The notes under the pieces are model-generated. The model saw nothing but the letters and a program-made list of their open reading frames with translations. It searched no databases and was not told the DNA's origin. DNA of 64,000 bases from assembly GCA_029204225.1 (NCBI GenBank), contig CM055097.1, positions 27,063,039-27,127,038 on the forward strand, read 5' to 3'. Positions 30,159 through 59,898 of this stretch are shown here, in pieces; within the stretch, counting starts at the first letter, position 1, and every line of letters starts with the position of its first letter. Position numbers and translations under genes: made by a program. Origin of the DNA: Diphasiastrum complanatum (Eukaryota; Streptophyta; Lycopodiopsida; Lycopodiales; Lycopodiaceae).

Positions 30159-31250
30159 TCAGGTGGCAAGAGTAAGAGCATGAGCCAATCTAGTGTCCTG
30201 AAAATCCCAGATCATCACCATCTGTTCATCCAATCCCACTGCAGAATTGGTCCAGCTATCGGGAGAAATCTCCCAGGAGCTCAGGATTGGCTCAGACAGG
30301 AGAGGAAGATCTGGCCTCGTGTCAAAACCTTCCCAGAAGAAGCTATCCTCAAAGTTGGCTGCAGCTTCCTGAGAAATGGAGATGGGAATAGAGGAGGTTG
30401 AATAAATTGGGCGATCCAATTCTCCATCACTGACAGACACGGAGGATCGTGGGCTGCCCTGATCATTTGTCTCCAGCTGCTGGAAGAATTTTTGTAGCTC
30501 CCCGTGCATCATCCGTCGTTCTGTCTCTTCAGCTTTTGTATCATGTAGGCCAGTAGGAGGCAGAGCTCTACACCTGCAACTATGGCGATGAAGAGATGGA
30601 GGATTCGTGTAGTGGGTGCAGTGACTTACGGTTGAATTCATAGGCACCTTAGATGATTTCAAACTGTTGGGCTCAGCAACATGGTAAGACATCACATGTG
30701 GGTCATTGATGGTAGGGGCGAGAGAGCACACCGACGGAGGAGAGTCATGGAAAAGCTTCATCTGGGTATGAGAAACGTCATCACCAAAATCGTTGAAGTT
30801 CTTGGTAGTCCTTTGGGAAGATAATGCAGCCCCAGATGAGGCAGCAGCAAATGTATCGGTGTAGCTAGTCAAATTCGAAGTCTCTGATGCACACCACCCG
30901 CAATCACTGCTGCAGCAGCTTGCATCTATGGACAAATTCGAGAGAGACTGTCCAGAAGTCGTGCTGGCAGCGGAGGAGGACGACATGGGTTGAGTTGGTG
31001 CCGGAGGAAGGTTGAGATGAGCTTCTGGACCATACAGCTTGATTGCTGCCTCATCGTAGGCTCTGGCTGCTTCGTCAGCTGTGGAGAAGGATCCGAGCCA
31101 GAGACGAGTGCGTTTTCTGGGCTCCCTGATCTCCGCCACCCACTTACCCCACGTCCGCTGCCTCACTCCCCTATACCGACATGTCGCGTTTTGAGGGCCG
31201 CCCTTGCCTCGCATCGATCCCTTTTTCCACTCCCGCGTTGGCTCCTTCAT
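30159..31250 (-). CDS. DREB-type AP2/ERF transcription factor (DREB2/A-2-like)
   Basis: A complete intronless 363-residue protein with an ATG start at 31250. Residues 16-25 ([10 protein letters not shown]) lead into one AP2 domain (about 26-82). Its [19 protein letters not shown] block carries the DREB-diagnostic Val (V38) and Glu (E43), followed by [19 protein letters not shown] and EAHLNLP. This domain binds DRE/CRT elements (core CCGAC) in dehydration- and heat-response promoters. The KGGP leader is typical of the DREB2 (A-2) subgroup. The rest is Ser-rich, with an acidic, aromatic C-terminal region ([26 protein letters not shown]) that probably activates transcription. Basic residues 6-16 may serve in nuclear import. 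The 5' flank holds a (GA)n tract on the coding strand at 32075-32004. An A-2 assignment is likely; the exact orthologue is not clear. Confidence 0.95.
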
Positions 31251-32003
31251 CGAGAGATGTATACTACTTGACTGTCTAAGCAGGTACTAAAAGCTGCGAA
31301 TTACAGAGATGAAATCTACAGAAATTACCTGCAACCAACGTCTCAGAAAGCGCGAAAGATTGAACCATCTGATTCGACCTCTACGCATACAAAGAGGGTA
31401 AAGACGGTGAGCAGAAAGTGGTTAAATCAAGCAAACACCGGCACTGAACTTCTCTGATCCTAAGTGTACAAGAATGGAGCGCAGACATGCACGTTTGACC
31501 GAATGATCAAGGTGGAAAAGAAAATCAGCCTTCTTTTCAAAAACAGCTTGGCAGCCGCAACATGAAGCATATCATTCCCAGACTCGTGCGGTAGCCTGAA
31601 CCAGCTACTTTCATAACTCCACAAGCCTGAAAACATCGCATGTGCTGGCCAGAACTTAGAAGCAAGGAAGGATCTTTCTGGAAATTCTAAGACCGCGATA
31701 AAGCTAGCTACTCACAGGACTGCTCTTCTGCAACCTTGGCACTGGGCAGCTCCTTGCGTCTGCGAAAAACCAAAAAGCAGGCTTGTCCCGACTTGTAAGG
31801 CAGCAGCAGGAGCTGGTAAAGACTGGTATAATTCACAGGCTGAGGAACAGGGTCAGACAAAGACAGCAATGAAAATGTGAGAATGGGGTGAGATAGAAAT
31901 GGCTGCAGAATAGCACAGAAGCATAAATAGAAGCAGAATGGCAGAGTAATAGGCGAGAATCCAGGATCAAAACAAAATTCTCCAGCCAATGCAGCGATCG
32001 CTC
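31251..32003 (-). other. 5' flank or leader of the AP2/ERF gene
   Basis: No separate gene is seen. GT and AG signals near 31330-31290 on the minus strand could bound a 5'-UTR intron, as in some plant DREB2-type genes, but this is not established. ORFs at 31708-32310 read through the GA tract and are not convincing. Confidence 0.35.

Positions 32004-42622: not shown

Positions 42623-42709
<87 letters not shown>
42522..42709. repeat. Compound microsatellites: (CA)n, then (TA)n(TG)n
   Basis: (CA)n covers 42522-42550, after a GTGCGCGCGC run. After about 70 unique bases, (TA)n at 42623-42640 runs directly into (TG)n at 42641-42709. The TG end is only a few bases from the Copia fragment at 42715. 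ORFs through it are Thr-His or Val-Cys artefacts. Confidence 0.95.
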
Positions 42710-42712
<3 letters not shown>

Positions 42713-42714
42713 AA

Positions 42715-43065
42715 GGGGATCTTTCTTGGTTATGCTGAAACTAGCAAAGGATATAGAGTCTATAATCCAATCACTAAAAGATTTTAGTGAGTAGAGATGT
42801 TACTTTTGATGAAGGTAACTACTATAAGTTGAATGAGAAAGCTTCTAATTCATCTTATGTCAAGGATCTTGTAAGGTTTGAGGAGGAGCCTACATGTGAT
42901 CAAGATCTTGAAGATCCATCTCAAGATCCGAGGACTCCAAGGAGATCTACAAGAAGGAAGGCCGAGCCCTTAAGGCTCACCTATGTTGACAAAGGTGAAC
43001 AAAGGGAAGATCTACATTCACTTACCTCTTACACTTTTCTAACTTCTATGTTTGATGAGCCATGA
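42715..43065 (+). pseudogene. Copia integrase-RT linker fragment, duplicate of 45366-45712
   Basis: The sequence matches the larger Copia relict from the GGGGATCTTT(G/C)TTGGTTATGC block to TTTTCTAACTTCTATGTTT, with few changes. An open frame (42787-43065) encodes DVTFDEGNYYKLNEKAS and the RRSTRRKAEP linker between integrase and RT. It keeps ATGTTTGATGAGCC, where the larger copy has lost one base. It stops just after this point and the next 200 bases are not pol. It is a sheared copy fused to a (TG)n tract. Confidence 0.85.
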
Positions 43066-43281
43066 AACTAAAACCATTCTAAACACCATAGGAAGGCATT
43101 GGGACTTCCAAGAATCAAATCCTAGTTTCTAAGTGAATAGATTGTGTAGATACTCTTTTCCAAATCTTTTTGAGCTCAAGATCATGATAGATCTTGCTTC
43201 TTGAGTCTTCTGAGATTCAAGAGATTAGCATTGTAGCTAAATTCTAAGAGAGAGTGAAGGGAGAGCCTTTGAATAGTACAT

Positions 43282-46200
43282 TTGTTGTACTTGCTACTAG
43301 ATAGAATGGGTTCAATTGGAGCCTATCTTCTTGAGGCTAGTGAAAGGCTAAATTCTAATAATTATTCAACTTGGAAAGTAAGAATGGAGTCTCTACTTGT
43401 GCTCCAAGATACGTATGATCTTGTCATAGGAGAGGAAGAAGAACCTCAAGGAGGGCAAGATCTAGTGAGGTACAAAAAGAAAGCTAGATTAGAATCACAT
43501 TGCTTGAAAATGAATGTTAGTAATGAACTTCTAAAGGAAGTGGCATCTTGTACCTCGGCTAAGGAGGCATGGGACTACCTTAAAGGGATTTATGAATCCA
43601 AAAATACCTCTAGAGTGCTTATGACTAGAAACAAAGTTCTTCAAAGCATTAGAGGGAGTGAAGAGAGTGCTCAAGAGTATGTCTTGAGAATAAAATCTCT
43701 CAACAAAGAACTTTCCATCATTAGTGAGGGTATTCATGATGATGAACTTGTTCAAATCATTTTGAATGGTCTTGGAGATGAGTTCTCAAATCTTGTACAA
43801 AGCTTTGCTGTTCAAGATGCACTACCTTCCATTGACAAGCTCCATAGTGTGCTTGTGGCCGAGGAGAGTAGGATCCTTCATGTCAAGCAAAGGATGGGAT
43901 CCTTGAAGTTGCATGATGGTGATGAGAAGGCCAACTTCTCAAGCAAGGGAAAGGCAAAGTCAAAGAAGAAGATCCAACAAAAGGAGACCAAGAATGATGA
44001 TCAACCATCAAGCTCCAAAGGTAGAAAGAAGAACAAAGCCAAACTCAAGTGCTTCTTTTGTGGAAAGAAGGGACACTTTTTATCCGAGTGTTTTAAGAAG
44101 AAGAATGCACAAGGAGAGAGCAAACAAGGCAACCTCACTCTTGAGGAAGATGAGGATGAAGTGGACTCATCCTTAATGGCTTCTACATCAACATCCAAGA
44201 GCTACTCCAATGACACATGGTGGATTGATAGTAGGGCTATTTCCACATGACATTCCAAAAGGATTTTTTTCTCAACTCTTGTACCTTTTGTAGGTTGTAA
44301 AAAGTCTATTCTAACAGCAAGTGATCAAGAATGTAGAATAGATGGAGTGGGAAGTATTCCCTTAAGTCTTGGATCCTCTAAAAGAGTAGATCTTGATAAT
44401 GTACTCTATGTTCCTACACTCACTAAGAATTTGTTAAGTGTAGGACAATTGATGGATGATGGCTTAGATGTCCATTTTAAGCAAGGTGTTTGCTCCATAA
44501 TGATGAATAATATTTGCATTGTAAAGGGATTCAAGCAAGGAAGGCTTTTTAAGCTAGATGCTAATGTTTTTCTTGGAAGTGTGAACATGGTGAAGGAGGA
44601 GCTCAATCAAGTGGAGCTTTGGCATAAGAGGTTGGGCCAACCCAACCTCAAATCTATGGAGATGCTATGCACCAAGAATCTTGCTCTCAGCCTTCCAAAG
44701 ACACTCTCAAAGTGTGGAAAAAGTTGTGAAGCTTGTAGCCTCTCAAAGGCACACAAGCTACCTTTTGATATCTCTTCCACAAGATCTACAAAAGCATTAG
44801 ATCTTATTCATAGTGATGTGCACTCTTTTTCTCAAGAATCTAATGGAGGTGCATCTATGTATGTATCTTTTATTGATGATTACTCTAGATACACTTGGAT
44901 TGAACTTTTGGATTCAAAAGTAAAGTGTTTGAAGCTTTTGCTAAGCTCAAAACTCTAGTTGAAAATCAACTTGATGCTAGAATTAAAGTATTGAGGAGTG
45001 ATAATGGTGGAGAGTATATCTCCACCAAGATGATAGAGTTTTGTAAATCCAATGGCATTAAGAGAGAACTTACATGTACTTATAGTCCTCAACAAAATGG
45101 TATAGCCAAGTGGATGAATAGAACACTTTGTGAGTGTGCTAAGGCTTTGAGGTTAGATGCATCTCTACCTAAGTCCTTTTGGGGAGAGGCTATTATTTTT
45201 GCAACTTATTTGTATAATAGATTGCCATGTAAGCCCATTGGAGGCATAACATCTTATGAGGCTCTATTTTGTAAGAAGCCGAATCTTAAAGATCTAAGAA
45301 TTTTTGGATCTACTTGCTATGTTTTTAACGCATTAGATACAAGAAAAAAGAATGATCCTACTTCTATAAAGGGGATCTTTGTTGGTTATGCTGAAAATAG
45401 CAAAGGATATAGAGTCAATAATCCAATTACTAAAAAGATTTTAGTGATTAGAGATGTTACTTTTGATGAAGGTAACTACTATAAGTTGAATGAGAAAGCT
45501 TCTAATCCATCTTATGTCAAGGATATTGTAAGGTTTGAGGAGGAGCCTACATGTGATCAAGATCTATCTCAAGATCTGAGGACTCCAAGGAGATCTACAA
45601 GAAGGAAGGCCGAGCCCTCAAGGCTCACCTATGTTGACAAAGGTGAACAAAGGGAAGATCTACATTCACTTACCTCTTACACTTTTCTAACTTCTATGTT
45701 TATGAGCCAAGTTGCTTTGAAGAAGCTATGGAGTCACAAGAATGGAGGGATGCCATGCAAAAGGAGTATGATGCTCTTATGGAGAATCATACATGGAAGC
45801 TTGTGGATCTTCCTCATGGAAGAAAGCCACTTGAGTGCAAATGGATCTATAGGGTGAAGTACAATCAAGATGGGAGCATCAACAAACACAAGGCAAGGCT
45901 AGTGGCAAAGGGGTTCTTGCAAACCAAGGGAGTAGATTTCGATGAAACTTTTGCTCTTGTTGCTAAGCTAGTTTCCATAAGGTTGATTATTTCTCTTGCA
46001 ACTACTTTCAATTGGCCTCTATTTCAACTTGATGTGACTAATGCTTTTCTCAATGGATATTTGGAAGAGGATATTTTCATGAGGCAACCCGAGGGCTTCA
46101 TCAAAGAGGATCAAGAGGGAAAAGTGTGTTTGTTGCTAAGAAGCATTTATGGGCTTAGGCAAGCACCTAGAGCTTGGTACTCTAGGTTGAATACTTTCTT

Positions 46201-47260
46201 GAACTCTATTAGGTTTTTTGTAAGTGCTTATGATCCTTCTTTGTACTTAAGATTCAATGATGGTAAGATCATCATTCTCATTTTGTATGTTGATGACATT
46301 ATCCTTAGTGGAAATGATCATGTTGGTATACAAGAAGTGAAAGTAGCATTGTTTAAGGAGTTTAAGATGGTGGATCTTGGTAATCCTCAGTTCATATTAG
46401 GAATAGAAGTTTCAAGAGGCAAGGATTTGAGTTTTATTTGTCAATCCAAATATGCTTCTTCTATCTTAGAAAAATTTGAAATGAAAAATTGTAAAGGAGT
46501 AGAAACTCCTATGGAGCAAAATGTAAAAGTTTCCAATAGTGATGATGAAGCATCCTTTGAGGACATCACACTATATAGGAGATTTGTAGGGTCCTTGATC
46601 TATCTTACTATAACTAGGCCTGATCTAAGTTATAGTGTAGATAAACTAAGCCAATCTATGCAAAACCCATTGGTTTGTCATTGGAAAAATGCAAAAAGGG
46701 TGTTGAGGTACATCTCGGCCACCAAGAACTTTGTCATTTTATATGATGAATCTAATCTTGCCTTAATGGCATATTCGGATGCTGATTTTGCAGTTGATAA
46801 GGTGGATAGGAGGTCCACAAGTGCTTTTATTACCTTCCTTTGCAATGGCATAGTGTCTTGGCATTCCAAAAAGCAAGATACTATTTTTCTATCTTCAACC
46901 GAATCAGAATACAAGGCACTAACATCCACAACAAAGGAGATCCTATGGTTGAAGAGGCTTTTGGTGGAGTTGCAAGTCAAGGAGGCCGAGGAGTAGCCAA
47001 TAATATTTTGTGACAACCAATCAAGCCAAGCATTAGCAACCAATCCCACATTCCATGCAAGGAGCAAGCACATATAGATTGCTCACCATTTTGTGAGGGA
47101 AAAGGTTCAAGCAAAGGAGATCAAGCTACATCATGTGTCTTCTTCAGATTGCCTTGCTGATCTACTCGCTAAAGCCTTGCCAAAGGCTTCATTTATCAAG
47201 TTAAGATCAGCCTTAGGAGTTGTAGATAGATGTACTATAGTTGTATCCTGTAAAAATTGA
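43282..47260 (+). pseudogene. Near full-length Copia gag-pol relict 2
   Basis: Domains run in order. Gag covers 43306-44200 (SNNYSTWKVRMESLL; zinc knuckle CFFCGKKGHFLSEC near 44052). A protease remnant (WWIDSRA, normal DSGA) ends at a TGA at 44248. Then come the gag-pre-integrase (HKRLGQPNLKSMEML), integrase (HSDVHSF, FIDDYSRY, RSDNGGEYIS, PQQNGIAKW), RT (LDVTNAFLNG, YVDDIIL) and RNase H (YSDADFAVDKVDRRSTS, SSTESEYKAL). It ends in a tail with ADLLAKALPKASF and a TGA at 47258. Breaks are frameshifts at about 44240, 44262, 44920 and 45702, and TAG at 46994 and 47075. The catalytic YVDD is intact. Start of gag at 43306 (ATGGG) is more likely than the non-ATG at 43282. No left LTR or tRNA-Met primer site is visible. 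Confidence 0.92.
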
Positions 47261-47600: not shown

Positions 47601-48776
47601 AATAGGGACTTGTCACAGATTCCATTCAATGGTTCTTGGGGAATAGCCTCTAGGTCCATCATAAAAATTGGCATGGAATATTGATGGCCTTTGTTGGGTT
47701 CTTTAGTTTGTTCCACGAACATCCTTGATGGAAGTTCACCCTCATTGAAAGAAGTGTCAACGACAATTTTGTTAAAATTCACAAGCTAGTTTGATATTTT
47801 CACTTGTAAATTGCATTGAGGCCATGTGGTGGGATCTCACACGTGCCAAAAGCATAGGATATTTTTTTCTTAAGTCAAATCAATAACCTAGCTTTGGAAT
47901 GGTACCTTTGGACTGAGAGGCCAAAATGTGCATAAATAGGCTAGAGAGATTCTAGGAGCTAAAAATAGCAATTTTCACATTGTTTTGGATCTCAAGATCT
48001 TAACCCCCAATTAGGGTGATCTTATGACCTAATAGGTTAAACATTAGGTTTAGGTTATGGATGGATCAGAGGAAGCCCTAAATGCTCAGATCCGAGGCAC
48101 TTATGTATAAATGTGATGGATCATCCATCCAAGGGATCTTCCTTCATGAACACAATTTTCTAATGAGTGGGTTATTGAAAAGGTTTCTCCTAAGAATATT
48201 CCCTCCAAAACTTTTAAAAATCAAAAGCACATTTTTGTGTAAAATTATTTTTTTAAGGGTAAGATTTTTTACTTTCTAAAAACTTCAGAATGCACATACC
48301 ATATTTTCAAAAATACATTAGTAAGAAACTATGAAATTATCTCCATTGCAAATTTGATATAGTTTTCAAAAATATCACAAACAAAAATTGAACTTAAAAT
48401 GCATAAACTAATGTACTTTTTGTTGAAATTTTGTTATATGTATTTGCATAACGCATTAAAAATATTCATATTTTAATTGTCATCTAGATATTTTCAATAC
48501 TTTAAAATGATGTTTTAGTTTGCATAAAAAGTATTCAATAAAAAATTTGCATAACAACTTAATTTATCTAAATGCACAATGATAGTGCATAAAACAGAAC
48601 TTTTTATAAATCTAAGAATAAGGTCATGAAACATAATATCTCAAGTATATCTTTGTGAATCTCACACAAATAAATGCTTGATTTCAAAATTTGGCACTTG
48701 CTAGTAAATATATAAGTATCCATATAAACCAAAGGTTCATGCCAATAACATATATGTCTGCCAAACAATAAAAGTA
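47601..48776. other. AT-rich spacer, no gene
   Basis: No gene is recognised. The minus ORF 47588-47782 has normal composition but no domain and no ATG. Strings of T and A follow to 48776. Confidence 0.4.
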
Positions 48777-50049
48777 TCAAGCAATATCCAGCAACATATC
48801 TGGTAATACCTTCTCGGCTGATTGAGAGGCTTGTCCCTCTTCAATGACTTCAATAGCCCTCTCAGTGTAATCTTGAGGGGGCTCAATAATATCATCTCTC
48901 AACCCAACCAACTCCCCTTCTTCATTTAGAAGTCGGGGAACCGGTTCCAATGAGGCACTTTGGAAACTCTCACTATTGTCGACTGCTCGAGCCCCAACTT
49001 CCTGAAGTTCTCAAATGGCAGCCACTCTCATTTCAATGCAGGTCGCCTGGATTTCATCCACTTCAACAGCTATGCAATTCTTGTTTTCCTTGAGGGCACA
49101 ACATGTGGTAGTACTTAAATTTGAAAGTAAATAAGAGAACAAGTTACTCAAGTAAAACAAAATTAAATTTTAAAGTTAATAATTGATCATGAAAAGTAAT
49201 TGTAAGCAAAGAAACACATCTTAATACATGTTCCTGCAAACAGGTCCAGAACCCAATCATCCTCATTCGAGAACATATCCATTAACTTGTTGATTAATCT
49301 TTGAGGCTTTTGATAAGGGTTAATCAAAGACCTATCACCCTCTAAGTTTCTCAATTTCCGAGTCACAGCTGGACAAGAAATGGCATTACTGCATTGTTCA
49401 TTGCAATGAATTCGTAATCTTTTTTTTTCATGCACATAATAGTAGCCCACTGTCATCATTTCAAAAGAACTGATTAGCCGTGCATGCTCCAGATTTGTTT
49501 TTTTCCTACATATATAATACCATATTAGCATCCAGACTTACATTCCCAAACATCAACTACATCAAAATAAATATCACAATATATATTTAAAATGACATAC
49601 CAGACAAGGTGCTCGATAGCATGACATATGGTTTTCAGATATGCAATCACTGATGGCAATTGAGCCACACTATGAAAAATCACACATCTCCATAAAGAAG
49701 ATGTTGTCAAGGCAGCAAAATCATTAACCAGCTTGGTAATTTGAGAGTACGAAAATGGTTTTTTGTCATTAATGGAGCCAGGCATTCTGAAACCATATGG
49801 AATATTTGCAATAGCAAGAGTATACTCATGCTTTGGGACATCATCTAGCAATTTTGCAATATCACAACAGACAATCTGATAAGTAAATTTTCTCATCGGA
49901 TCTGAAAGACATGTGAAGGTCTTAAAATTCTCAAACAATATTAAGTAATATTGAGGACGACAAATGGGAACTCCCATTTGACTTCGTGTGGCTTGTCCAT
50001 CAAAATAACACCGAAGTAGAGCAGGTACAAATAACAGACCATCATGAAT
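48777..50049 (-). pseudogene. Beta-class DNA amino-methyltransferase-like gene, spliced, 5' end missing
   Basis: Exon 1 (50049-49601) follows a TCTTCTAACAG acceptor. It encodes a region with LAIANIPYGFRMPGS (motif IV, usually [D/N]PPY), then FAALTTSSLW and AIEHLVW. A 95-nt intron (49600-49506, GTATGT...ATGTAG) joins in frame to exon 2 (49505 to about 49228), which has EHARLISSFEMMTVGYYYV, INPYQKPQRLINKLMDMF and DDWVLDLFAGT (motifs X and I). Exon 3 (about 49113-48777) continues the fold with TTTCCALKENKNCIAVEVD, then an acidic tail. Motif IV before motif I is the beta-class order of N6-adenine/N4-cytosine methylases. Breaks are a damaged donor after exon 2, TGA at 49011, Ile for the first Pro of PPY, and Cys for Gly after FAGT. 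The 5' exons are missing; a truncated Copia lies 200 bases upstream. Confidence 0.7.
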
Positions 50050-50253: not shown

Positions 50254-51420
50254 TTGATTCAAAGCATCTTCCACAAAGCACTGCACGGCCTGAAACAGTC
50301 TGCCAGAGCTTGGTTTCAGAGGATCAACACATTCCTCATTGAACAAGGATTCAAACCAAGCACTGCTGATTGCAACGTTTATTCAAGGTCAGTGCAGCAA
50401 TCCTTCATTATCATCACCTTGTACGTTGATGATACGTTGCTCTTCGGCAACAATACCAAAATGGTCAAGGATGCAAAACAGATGTTGTTCTCAAAATTTG
50501 ACATGACTGATCTGGGCAAAGCTCACTTCTGTCTTGGAATTCAAATCCACAGAGATAGAGCAAATCGACTGATTTACATCACTCAACAAGGGTATCTTCA
50601 CAATGCTCTTAACAGATACAATTTGATGAATTGTAAATTAGCTCACTCATCAATGGATCCAGGCCTGCATTTGTCAAAGGACCAATGTCCCCAGACCAAA
50701 CAGGAAGATGAGCAGATGAGAGAATATCTGTATCGATCGATATTTGGATCTCTCATGTATGCAATGGTCTGTACAAGACCAGATATCTCTTTTGTTGTAA
50801 GCTCACTCAGCCAATATATGACTAATCCGGGCATTACCCATTGGAAGGCTCTTATTCGAATCATGAGATATATTTGAGCTACCATAGACCAATGCATCTG
50901 CTATGGAGATGTCAGCAACGACAATCTTCATCAGCTCAGTGGCTATTCTGATGCAAGCTAAGGAGGAGATGCAGACAATCGTAAATCCACATCTGGATTT
51001 ACATTCTTCTTCAACGGCGGTCCTATTTCGTGGAACAGTCATAAGCAAACCTCTATCGCACTTTCTTCTACTGAAGTAGAATACATTGCTGCTTCTCAAT
51101 CTATTAAGGAAGCGTTTTGGTTGAGAAATCTGTTGTTATACATCAATCTGTATCAATACAGCCCTACAATTTTGTTTTGTAATAACCAAAGTGCTATTGC
51201 CTTATCGGCCAATCCTAGATTTCATTCTAGGAGTAAGCACATTGAGATCAGATATCACTACATCAGGGACAAGGTTCTCGACAGGGAGGTAAGCTTAACG
51301 TACTACAGAAGGCAGGACATGGTTGCAGACATTTTCACGAAAGCACTCAGTGTTAATACACACAACAAATTTTGTGCATTGCTCAGTCTGAAGATCAAGA
51401 CATTCACAGATCCAGATTAA
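50254..51420 (+). pseudogene. 5'-truncated Copia relict 3 (RT second half and RNase H)
   Basis: One frame runs from about 50270 (ALHGLKQSARAWFQRINTF) through the RT active site (TLYVDDTLLFG) and KFDMTDLGKAHFCLGIQI to RNase H (DADNRKSTSGFTFF, SSTEVEYIAASQSIKEAFW). It then covers NNQSAIALSANPRFHSRSK and the tail DMVADIFTKALS, ending at 51418-51420. Only two stops interrupt it (TGA 50875, TAA 50959) and there are no frameshifts. Gag, protease, integrase and the first RT half are missing. A poly-G purine tract and a 3' LTR follow directly. Position and direction suggest it landed in, or replaced, the 5' part of the minus-strand methyltransferase-like gene. Confidence 0.9.
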
Positions 51421-51427
51421 GGGGGGG

Positions 51428-52015
51428 TGTTGAATTTACTCCTTCTACTCTCCTAAATTCCATTTTTAATCTGCCTCCATTCTTGCTGCATATTTACTAA
51501 CGTTGTCATGCAGCCTGCATATTTACACGCAAATTCGCACAGACGAATAAAAGGCGAAAGAATCGCGATACTGTGTTTTTACACAGGTTATGGTGACAGG
51601 CGAAAAGGGGACACTATCCTACAGAATGTCGAAGGTGCCCTAAAAGCTAAGGCACCCTGTAAATCTAATCCTAAGGCTACTCGTAAGAAGTGACGCACTT
51701 TTTGCATCATCACCAACGTTCACCTCAGTACTGACTGACGTCGCACCCTTCTCACGCTCATCCCATGCAGTTGCGCTAACAGATTGGACAACTACTGCAG
51801 TCACCCACGATCTCTTACAGACAGCACATCCACTCTGTACTTTCACATCTGCACACTTGTAATATTATTAATATATTGGATACCATCTACGTATTCCATA
51901 GTGAGAGAAGAAGAGACTAAGAGAAGAGGTTTCATTTCTCATTACAAACAAAATAAGCTTCGTAGGGCACGCGGTTTCGTCCGCTATTGTATTGTGCTCT
52001 ACTGCATTATTAACA
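51428..52015 (+). repeat. 3' LTR of Copia relict 3
   Basis: It starts TGTTGAATTT directly after the polypurine tract AAGGGGGGG (51419-51427). It probably ends at CATTATTAACA (52015), which gives matching TGTT...AACA ends. No second LTR copy is in the window, so the right end is a best guess. Confidence 0.6.
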
Positions 52016-52823
52016 TGTATATATGATATACTTAATCTGATACAGCTCTTTGTTCTGCATTCCGATTTGTGTTAATATTGCTATGCTTGTTCTTCATTTT
52101 GTCTGATCTTTCTAGTTGTTCTTTCTGGTAATAGACGATTAACTTTTAGTCTTGTCTTTCGCGAATCATCCGCGACTAATTATCAGTTGAGCACAGTCTA
52201 GCTCTTCGCGAATCATTCGCGACATATAATTTGTCTTGCAATTTGCGACAAATTATTCATCTAGCGCTTCATCCATTAAATGTTTGGCTGCGTAATCTTG
52301 AATGACTATGATTCCTATCACTAAAGTTTTGTTCATTTTGATAGGCGTAGTCATGCTTACGGAGAGAGACGTTTAACTCATTCCGTGTTTCTCAAATGTG
52401 TCAAAATAGCTTTTCTATCTTATAATTTACTCGGCTAGCACACCGGAATGCTAGCCGAATCAACGAGCCAAAAAGAAATTTATTTTTTCAAAACGTTCTT
52501 CAAAAAAATTTCATTTTTTTTTAAATAAAAATTTGCAGGCTAGCACGCCGGCATGCTAACTTTTACAACTTCAAGAATAGCTCTTTTTTAATAAAAGTAA
52601 ACCTATATTTATAGAGTAACAAATATTTTGTGATGGACCTATTTAGAATTTGATGGATAGTCAAATTTTTAAGTATGCATCAAACAACAATTCTTGTTCT
52701 TAAAAAATCATGTAGTGAGATAAAAACAGTAGCACATGGTGTGCTACTATTTTATTGGATCATGAGTAGAAGAAAATCGAAAAACTCACAAAAAAATTAC
52801 TTGCAGAATGTCAAAACCCCCTA
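52016..52823. other. Spacer with short repeats and palindromes, no gene
   Basis: TTCGCGAATCATCCGCGAC (52158-52176) and its near copy (52205-52223) are 47 bases apart. A perfect 9-base hairpin, CGGCTAGCA...TGCTAGCCG (52432-52457), has a diverged second copy near 52535-52560. No coding content is seen. Confidence 0.6.
52432..52457. repeat. Perfect 9-bp hairpin CGGCTAGCA/TGCTAGCCG
   Basis: Arms 52432-52440 and 52449-52457 with an 8-base loop, CACCGGAA. A related AGGCTAGCACGCCGGCATGC lies about 105 bases downstream. Confidence 0.8.
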
Positions 52824-57444: not shown

Positions 57445-59641
57445 TCACATAAGCACCTCACAAACAACATTTGGAAATTGGACCTCGTGGTCCTTCCACC
57501 ACTGCAATGGGCTACTACACTCTTCAAGTGGAATGTTCAATCTCCTGAATAAGGAAAGCTCAGACTTCACCAAACTTGTTGTGGCTTCCTCGTCAGATGC
57601 TTGATGCCCAAACAATGAATCTGCAACATCATGCTCTAGTGGTTGTGTGGTTTGTGCTCTTGGATTTAGACGGTTGAAGCAAGTTACCAAGAGTGGAATG
57701 AGGACTTTCACATCATACTCACCGACAATTTGAATTGCAGCATCTCTTCCAACATAGTCTCTAACCAAAGAGAGACCTTTAAAATGCGGGTCCAACATAA
57801 GGGCTAGTATATTGTGTGCCTTGCGAGCAGAAAATGAGACTAGACAAGACAAGAAAGGCTCAAGGACCCCAACCATCTCATTTTTCATATGAGCATTCAA
57901 GAGTTCTAACTCAGCATCAAAATCACCATTGCAATCAGCAACCATGGAGTTGTGAATTATATAACTTGCTTGACCCATCTGCATGCACAATTTTAGAGCA
58001 GCAACAAGCGCATCCGAGAGCAACCAATAGCCACGTGTTTGGTTTAATACACATCGTTTAACCACGGGTATAAGGGTTGAAGACACAGCACCTGCAATAG
58101 CCCATATCTGTGGACTTGGAACTCGAGACTGTAATGCCAAACTTTGCCTTGAGTAACATGTGATAATGCTTCCCTAAACTCCAAAGTTTCTTGAAAAAAA
58201 AAAATGACCTTAGAAGCAAATCTTGTCTTGATAGGTGTTTTCAATTTTTGTGGTCGCAATCCACTATCAATGCATGCCTTAGTCCATTCTTGTCTCCCCT
58301 TTCTTGACTTCTTTGTCCAAGTGATGGTCTGTTGGAGAGAACTTTGAGCCTCTTTCAAAGAAATCATTGACTTCATCCCAGCACACACCTTTGCATCATT
58401 GGTGGCATATTGGCAACACTTTGACATAACATGGCCAAAACAAGTCCCTGCATAGGGCTCACACAAATTCAAAGGCTCACAATCCACCACAAAGATAAGA
58501 GCATTTGTCATCATGTTCAAATTTGCGCCCTCATCCTTCACATACCCAATTATTCGTGAGGTAAGATTGTATTGAGACAAAAGTTCTTTCAATTGTAGAG
58601 CCATGGCTGCACCACTCGTGTCAAGTGTCTCAAACAATCCCACGGTCACATGACAAGGAACCCAAGAGTCATTCAGAAAGTTAATAACTAGGGCAAAAGT
58701 GTCAATTCCTCCACGTGACATCCAAAGATCAAATGATGCTGTAGCAGTCACACAACTAGCCAACAAAGGGAGGACATACCTTTCCAAAGTTTTGGCAACC
58801 ATCTGTGATATCGCCTCCTCCACAAGTTGGTGACGAGAAGGAAATACTAAACGATTGCATTGTCTAAGGATTAACCTCCTCAACCATATATTCTCAACAC
58901 TTGATAAGGGCCTATACCCTTTCACAATGTACAGCACTAAATCTTCCAAAAAACATTGTTGTTGATCATCCTCCTTCTTGTAAGGTGTAGAACTACCATA
59001 GAAACTAGTTATGGCAGAAGAAGAAGGTAAATTTCTCTTCTTCGTAGGATGACGAGCATCTTCTTTAGGGCATATGGAATCCTTTTGAGCCTTGTACTTG
59101 CTCAATACTTCTGCATGCTCACTAGAAACATGCTTTTTCATTGCAGTGGTCCCATGCTCTTTACCTTTCCTACTTTGTGAAGTGTTGTGTGCAGATAATT
59201 GTTTTGTATCAAGATGGCAAATGACACACCTCATCTGTTGAGGATTCTTCAAATCCACCGCACTTTTGTCATTCACAAAAAAGACCAAGTCAGGGCATTA
59301 CGATTGTAAGGCCTCCAGAATGATTGTTGTTGGGCCAACAAAGCCAATTGACAGCTCAACAATGAATCCTCCCGTTGTGAATTTTCTGTGGAAATGTTTG
59401 GTTGAGATTCAGTAACTCTATCTCCAATTGGTCCATTTGTTTCTTGCCCTTCATGACCACTTTCACCCTCAACCATGCTTGCAAATGTTCTTGCTCTACC
59501 TTCTGACATTAAGGCAGATTGACCTGTAAAGCCTTCTAGGATATGCAAATTATAGGCCACTGTGTTTAAAGACACTGCCACTCCTGAATACAATGCACAT
59601 AAGCTAGAAAAATGAAAACTTGGTTTTATAGAATGAATCAT
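57445..59641 (-). pseudogene. hAT-superfamily transposase relict with BED zinc finger
   Basis: The N-terminal frame (ATG at 59641) reads to about 59285. A shift in a six-T run then leads to the BED finger (CVIC...HVSSEH, about 59230-59120) and the hAT core: ASFDLWMSRGGIDTFALVIN, GYVKDEGANLNMM, and GTCFGHVMSKCCQ. Near 58160 a second shift moves to SRVPSPQIWAIAGAV, CVLNQTRGYWLLSDAL and LALMLDPHFKGLSLV. The final part reaches SPLQWWKDHEVQFPNV, the start of the hATC dimerisation domain, and stops; the conserved hATC remainder is missing. It would have cut and pasted an element with short inverted ends, but two frameshifts and the lost C-terminus make it inactive. A candidate right terminus lies at 61055. 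Confidence 0.88.
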
Positions 59642-59898
59642 AACAAGCCCCTAAAGGTTGCATGCACACTATTCTTAGGTAGGAGTGAATAACGACAACA
59701 GTGTTACAATACTTACAAGCTGACAGCTGATCAAAGTTAAAATGAGAAGCCAATGAAGGAATAACTCAAAGAAAACAATGATTAATGCAAATTACTCACC
59801 TGGTAATGACAATGAAGAATCTGGTATTTCAGATAGAACGAAGGATTGCAATAGAAATCTGAACTGTCAGCTGCAATAGAGACTCCGGAACAGACAGT

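Follow-up and report, generated by a model that had tools for sequence, protein, structure and literature searches.

How did a gene for a β-class N6-adenine/N4-cytosine DNA methyltransferase come to lie, split by introns, in the genome of the lycophyte Diphasiastrum complanatum? The window, meaning the whole stretch of 64,000 nucleotides analysed here (G000:C6:27063039-27127038 in the 1.74-Gb assembly searched, G000), carries on its minus strand, at 49928-48777, the relict of such a methylase in three exons. Our analyses of this relict, its own-genome copies, and its fern relatives make it likely that the window holds a 5'-truncated pseudogene of a multi-copy gene with a ParB-like part and a methylase, which most likely was an accessory gene of DNA transposons.

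The window relict encodes a β-class methylase

The joined window peptide, with X at the breaks, matched PF01555 (N6_N4_Mtase) at E=2.3e-11 (44.5 bits; cut-off, 26.7), and each of the three exon frames alone matched a profile from the methylase domain of the fern relatives. The alignable part of exon 1 (49601..49928, minus strand; E=3.9e-14) comprises the motif IV region, NIPYGF, and the next conserved block; exon 2 (49228..49505, minus strand; E=4.3e-11) comprises the conserved middle, INPYQKPQRLINKLM, and VLDLFAGT, which is motif I; and exon 3 (48777..49113, minus strand; E=5.5e-7) comprises CIAVEVDE and an acidic tail. Translation returned these peptides on the minus strand where an earlier note on this DNA, made from its letters alone, had placed them, and the β-class order that it had read, motif IV before motif I, was confirmed along with the profile match. 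The relatives of the relict are also collinear in alignment with prokaryotic ParB-methylases. Measured against [DNS]-P-P-[YFW], the catalytic motif of the window is N-I-P-Y, whereas lycophyte copies have D/N-I-P-Y and fern copies mostly D-A-P-Y; across these copies, positions 1, 3, and 4 are usually conserved and position 2 is changed.

Structure prediction, which the earlier note had proposed for the joined exons, was applied to a fern relative, P0002, and Foldseek and VIA grouped its methylase with CcrM, MboIIA, and RsrI. An AlphaFold model of P0002 from fern sequences alone was poor, with a predicted local distance difference test score (pLDDT) of 39. A second model, with prokaryotic rows added, reached a mean pLDDT of 57.9, the best methylase blocks exceeding 90 and residues 151-230 scoring ∼69-86; its alignment contained prokaryotic ParB-methylases, and it is therefore not independent evidence. 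Taken together, the profile, the matches to solved structures, and the predicted fold of the fern relative support a β-class amino-methyltransferase, a class in which the modified base, N6-methyladenine (6mA) or N4-methylcytosine (4mC), cannot be told from sequence.

Intron 1 (49506..49600, minus strand; 95 bp, GTATGT...TAG) interrupts a conserved Trp codon and joins exons 1 and 2 in frame, exactly as the earlier note had described. With the exons as drawn in that note, the introns have a G+C content of 21-25% vs 37-46% in the exons, and the open frames of exon 1 (149 codons) and exon 2 (92 codons) were equalled, in any of three frames, in only 2 and 7, respectively, of 5000 base shuffles. Intron 2 (49114..49227, minus strand; 114 bp) has a GT donor without an in-frame AG acceptor. 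The proposed join to exon 3 is out of frame, no canonical AG acceptor at the junction restores the homologous frame, and a TGA interrupts that frame after 33 codons. The outer limits needed correction as well. While exons 1 and 2 are open as proposed, the 121 upstream bases that had been assigned to exon 1 (49929..50049, minus strand) form an open frame outside the gene, with no homology to P0001 (a Diphasiastrum gene model described below) or to the nearest fetched copy, on contig C8; protein homology to P0001 begins at 49932 and nucleotide homology to the C8 copy at 49928. At the other end, this nucleotide homology does not stop at 48777 but continues through a 3' flank (48149..48776, minus strand; 80% identity to the C8 copy). 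The ParB-like part found in relatives is absent from the window. Because exon 3 lacks an in-frame canonical acceptor and contains an internal TGA, and because the 5' half of the gene is gone, the window copy is dead and 5'-truncated.

Among the fetched loci of its own genome, the closest to the window exons is this C8 copy (G000:C8:49764547, L195), with 81% and 87% protein identity; with its flanks (L221 and L222), it is 79% identical over window positions 49928-48149 and has a ParB-like part upstream. The two sequences diverge by 13-15% in the exons and by 21-25% in the introns, and their differences at codon positions 1, 2, and 3 number 21, 19, and 59 (59/99 third; p=8e-8). The 3' flank, counted in an arbitrary phase, gives 42, 39, and 37. 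Because the exons show this third-position excess and the flank is even across phases, the window and C8 lineages, judged by their codon positions, were protein-coding for much of their separate history.

Fern relatives share the intron positions

A Diphasiastrum gene model, P0001 (locus O6H91_23G046600), showed 74% identity over 27% of the window-protein query. It lies on G000:C23:27351925-27367838, which it matches at 98-99% in three stretches, and its annotation is a chimera of a P450 and a methylase-family fragment that reads into intron 1; gene models in such assemblies can thus absorb pieces of this family. A second protein search returned two Adiantum nelumboides proteins and a marginal bacterial match (E=0.098), and a search from one fern protein returned at least 25 proteins including the query, 24 from A. 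nelumboides and one from A. capillus-veneris. Several of these fern gene models also include domains that belong to retroelements or are unrelated. Bryophyte, algal, and seed-plant relatives were absent from the protein-search matches listed.

Breakpoints in the fern gene models coincide with both window introns. At the position of intron 1, after the conserved Trp, homology is re-entered in P0008, P0010, P0021, and P0027 and left in P0024, and at the position of intron 2, in motif I, eight models break at residues 616-620; other breakpoints lie elsewhere, for example at residue 432. These introns common to the window and ferns, which are known from fern gene models and not from fern DNA, point to an old eukaryotic gene. 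Enzymes of this class are typically bacterial or phage-encoded, which might suggest that the assembly contains DNA of an endosymbiont or of recent bacterial contaminants; the introns and the copy number strongly disfavour such a source, and we regard it as exceedingly improbable. The intron positions coincide with fern exon borders, the copies lie on chromosome-scale contigs with plant retrotransposon neighbours, and the best proteins found come from a lycophyte and ferns. The earlier claim of a eukaryotic gene therefore stands, because of the fern-matching introns, the many chromosome-scale copies, and the third-codon-position excess, and a PF01555 match in an assembly of this kind does not have to mean contamination or a single host gene. 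A viral, including giant-virus, origin was also considered and rejected: scans of IMG/VR, which reach close relatives only, confirmed none for either the window protein or P0002. In tblastn, P0002 gave weak matches in 40 phage records.

Another candidate source is a land-plant 4mC writer related to Marchantia DN4MT1 and serving sperm chromatin, of which the window copy would be a pseudogene. The catalytic class is identical, and lycophytes too have motile sperm. However, no Marchantia protein was among the protein-search matches listed, within the word and length limits of those searches. Moreover, the available text of PMC8885841 describes DN4MT1 as having no extra N- or C-terminal domains, whereas the family studied here has a ParB-like part and many decayed copies; descent from such a writer is therefore very improbable.

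A likely ParB-like part precedes the methylase in better-kept copies

The earlier note had proposed a search for intact paralogues, and better-kept copies with both a ParB-like part and a methylase were found in the same genome and in Adiantum ferns. These fern and better-kept lycophyte copies comprise, in order, (i) an N-terminal region, (ii) a domain with the pattern ..GG-x-H-S.....GLT-EEAK-LA-DHN.., and (iii) the methylase, and the pattern aligns onto the ParB core of 64 prokaryotic ParB-methylases. In hhalign, the ParB-like comparison gave p=0.00096 with ferns and 0.00087 with ferns plus lycophyte, with controls at 0.29-0.54 and a program probability of 22-23%. The ParB-like identity of the upstream part is likely rather than proven, because Pfam and a plain hidden Markov model (HMM) give no signal. 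One lycophyte copy (L213:4965-6005, minus strand) has a 347-codon open frame over the ParB-like part, with a divergent GGSHSAEARRHL core.

The family is abundant, and one subfamily is linked to DUF7869

The earlier note had called this enzyme class rare in land-plant nuclear genomes, which does not hold for Diphasiastrum. PF01555 exceeded its cut-off at no fewer than 150 genome places (150/150 scored, of 1605 first-look candidates); 27 of these lie on contigs numbered above C24, where some repeat chromosomal places, so that a few could represent alternative haplotypes. With fern P0002 as the query, there were at least 69 rows from 60 scored of 4239 candidates, and the best match among these 60 had E=2.4e-52 and 41% identity over residues 58-369. 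For P0001, 94 of 1689 candidates were scored and yielded at least 106 rows, of which 61 fall in the methylase tail, including the window copy. Many of the listed places are interrupted by stop codons. The Diphasiastrum genome thus holds at least dozens to hundreds of copies of the methylase family.

In a ∼8.9-kb copy on C32, a DUF7869 gene (E=1.4e-45) stands head-to-head, on the opposite strand, with an N-terminal open reading frame (ORF) that is followed by the ParB-like part and the methylase. A C10 copy is 92% identical to it over 6.3 kb, from DUF7869 to the ParB-like part, without the methylase, and a C6 stretch contains a tandem pair, in which the first copy shows the methylase and the second is preceded by DUF7869. 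DUF7869 itself scored above its cut-off at 150 genome places or more (150/150 scored, of 2953 candidates) and at no place in 14 control genomes. Five of these 150 are no more than 10 kb from one of the 210 methylase/ParB places listed (150 from PF01555 and 60 of the 69 P0002 rows, nine short secondary rows being excluded), whereas 5000 simulations had a mean of 0.35 and a maximum of 5; four of the five neighbours are head-to-head on opposite strands and one is on the same strand. The pattern D...LQLDN...GHTHDQID, which we take to resemble that of DDE enzymes, suggests that DUF7869 is a transposase; the term DUF7869 was not found in the literature searched. The earlier suggestion that the gene was perhaps carried by a mobile element is hence upheld for one subfamily, that of the DUF7869 unit. 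For the window copy and its own subfamily, mobility would be an extrapolation, because neither the C8 copy nor the window has DUF7869.

Weighing a transposon gene against a host gene family

Several observations weigh against a transposon-borne gene with a ParB-like part. The motif IV sequences, N/D-I-P-Y or mostly D-A-P-Y, depart from DPPY. For the ParB-like part, p was 0.044 in an earlier hhalign run on 10 prokaryotic sequences, against 0.11 and 0.74 for controls, Pfam found no ParB domain in the relatives, and a prokaryotic ParB HMM scored fern proteins no better than shuffles; the ParB part was also missing from the P0002 fold-comparison listing, which is no evidence either way. For the unit, C32 is the only one of the three aligned copies in which the three genes occur together in a fetched unit (the C6 stretch is cut short), the ends of the two decayed copies at C32 and C6 show no clear terminal inverted repeats, and 145 of the 150 best DUF7869 places have no listed methylase place nearby, each list holding best rows only. 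DUF7869 is absent from 17.5 kb of the C8 copy and from the window. Segmental duplication, finally, accounts for part of the copy number: C22 carries a tandem array of ∼4.5-kb units, ∼99% identical and each with a methylase relict and copia sequence (L211-L212, G000:C22:12331001-12351000), and 9.5 kb, the whole fetched length, is 99.99% identical between C7 and C11 (L215/L216).

The array, the C7/C11 pair, the lack of element ends at C32 and C6, and the C8 copy of the window's subfamily without DUF7869 would all suit a host gene family, in which a ParB-methylase captured once from prokaryotes spread by segmental and tandem duplication and nearby retrotransposon activity, mostly decayed, and had no part in a transposon. 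We consider this unlikely, since C10, C32, and C6, on different contigs, share parts of a unit with an oppositely oriented DUF7869 gene, since DUF7869 neighbours are in excess, and since the available text of PMC12477816 reports the same layout for Sola1-1_Ec32 in Ectocarpus. Neither duplication helped to define the element. The C22 array was rejected as an element unit, being a local tandem duplication that includes copia sequence, and the C7/C11 pair, which may reflect a large segment duplicated very recently, a giant element, or a duplicate made in assembly, is uninformative about element limits because it is near-identical over its entire 9.5 kb.

In the reading that we favour, the gene encoded an N-terminal region followed by a ParB-like domain and, at the C terminus, a β-class DNA amino-methyltransferase. 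It was most likely a transposon accessory, and the family probably owes part of its spread to such elements; in the ∼8.9-kb unit of one subfamily, it stands head-to-head with DUF7869, probably the transposase. The ParB-like domain would locate or bind sites on the element, and the methylase would write 6mA or 4mC on those sites. Such a mark would favour the element, either because it licenses the element's transposition or transcription or because it protects the element from silencing based on 5-methylcytosine (5mC). The window copy no longer has its ParB half, one splice site, or its reading frame and is now inert.

Eukaryotic 6mA and 4mC are rare and disputed. We tentatively raise the possibility, which we hold at somewhat less than even, that lycophytes and ferns harbour DNA transposons of a large and long-lived class, which themselves write a bacterial-type 6mA/4mC mark through ParB-like targeting; if so, these genomes would carry marks from outside the 5mC system usual in plants, and young elements would bear most of them. 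A large lycophyte family with fern relatives and signs of past constraint offers a direct test of 6mA/4mC on young elements and of a self-marking benefit to transposons.

Neighbours of the relict

In the place expected for the lost 5' half of the gene, the window carries the high-copy 3' part of a Ty1/copia element (50270..52385, plus strand; RVT_2, E=6.2e-29), which starts sharply at 50270, 342 bp upstream of the relict's homology break. At least 39 main matches to this fragment occur elsewhere, 36/39 beginning exactly at 50270 and 17/39 reaching 52385. Another Ty1/copia sequence, with a broken frame, lies at 43273-46996 (plus strand), and a ∼345-bp stretch at 42709-43053 is repeated at 45365-45701 (94-98%), 2.65 kb apart. 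An AP2/ERF gene at 30162-31286 (minus strand) has a single 375-codon open frame (PF00847, E=6.5e-15). Long hAT-like ORFs lie at 57448-59650 (minus strand), ∼7.4 kb from the relict; their Dimer_Tnp_hAT match (E=0.16) is too weak to name them.

Comparison with known systems

The catalytic domain fold and motif order are those of CcrM, RsrI, MboIIA, and M1.HpyAVI, which are bacterial and have no ParB-like part. Prokaryotic and phage ParB-methylases (for example, phiH YcdA; loci L002 and L018-L182) have a similar layout, with a ParB domain followed collinearly by a PF01555 methylase, and P0002 matches phrog_498 at E=1.6e-15; they differ, however, in their ∼14-23% identity to P0002, their lack of introns, and their TDPPY motif, and the plant ParB-like part is longer. 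Among eukaryotes, the bdelloid rotifer N4CMT (PDB 8s9m-8s9o) has, in the available text of PMC8885841, a chromodomain architecture in place of the ParB-like part. Marchantia MpDN4MT1a/b likewise represent an amino-methyltransferase in a land plant, but the sections of PMC8566409 and PMC8885841 available to us describe them as sperm-specific and without additional N- or C-terminal domains.

A close likeness is to Sola1-1_Ec32 of Ectocarpus, in which, according to the available text of PMC12477816, a ParB-like/N4C-N6A methyltransferase gene lies opposite the Sola1 transposase; its authors suggest that proteins of this kind may bind the transposon that carries them and modify it, and cite similar proteins for green and red algal transposons. 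The C32-type gene likewise combines a probable ParB-like part with a β-class methylase opposite a presumed transposase. The systems differ in that ours occurs in vascular plants, has introns, and forms a unit of ∼8.9 kb vs 21.5 kb, and its neighbour is DUF7869; the two are likened here by layout and not by transposase sequence. ParB is not a word in the main text of PMC12695648, and the titles and abstract openings searched contained no description of the family in land plants, although Iyer 2011 and Petroll 2025, the works cited for the algal cases, may mention it. The ParB-methylase transposon type is thus known already from Ectocarpus, and its lycophyte and fern expansion is, as far as we have searched, new.
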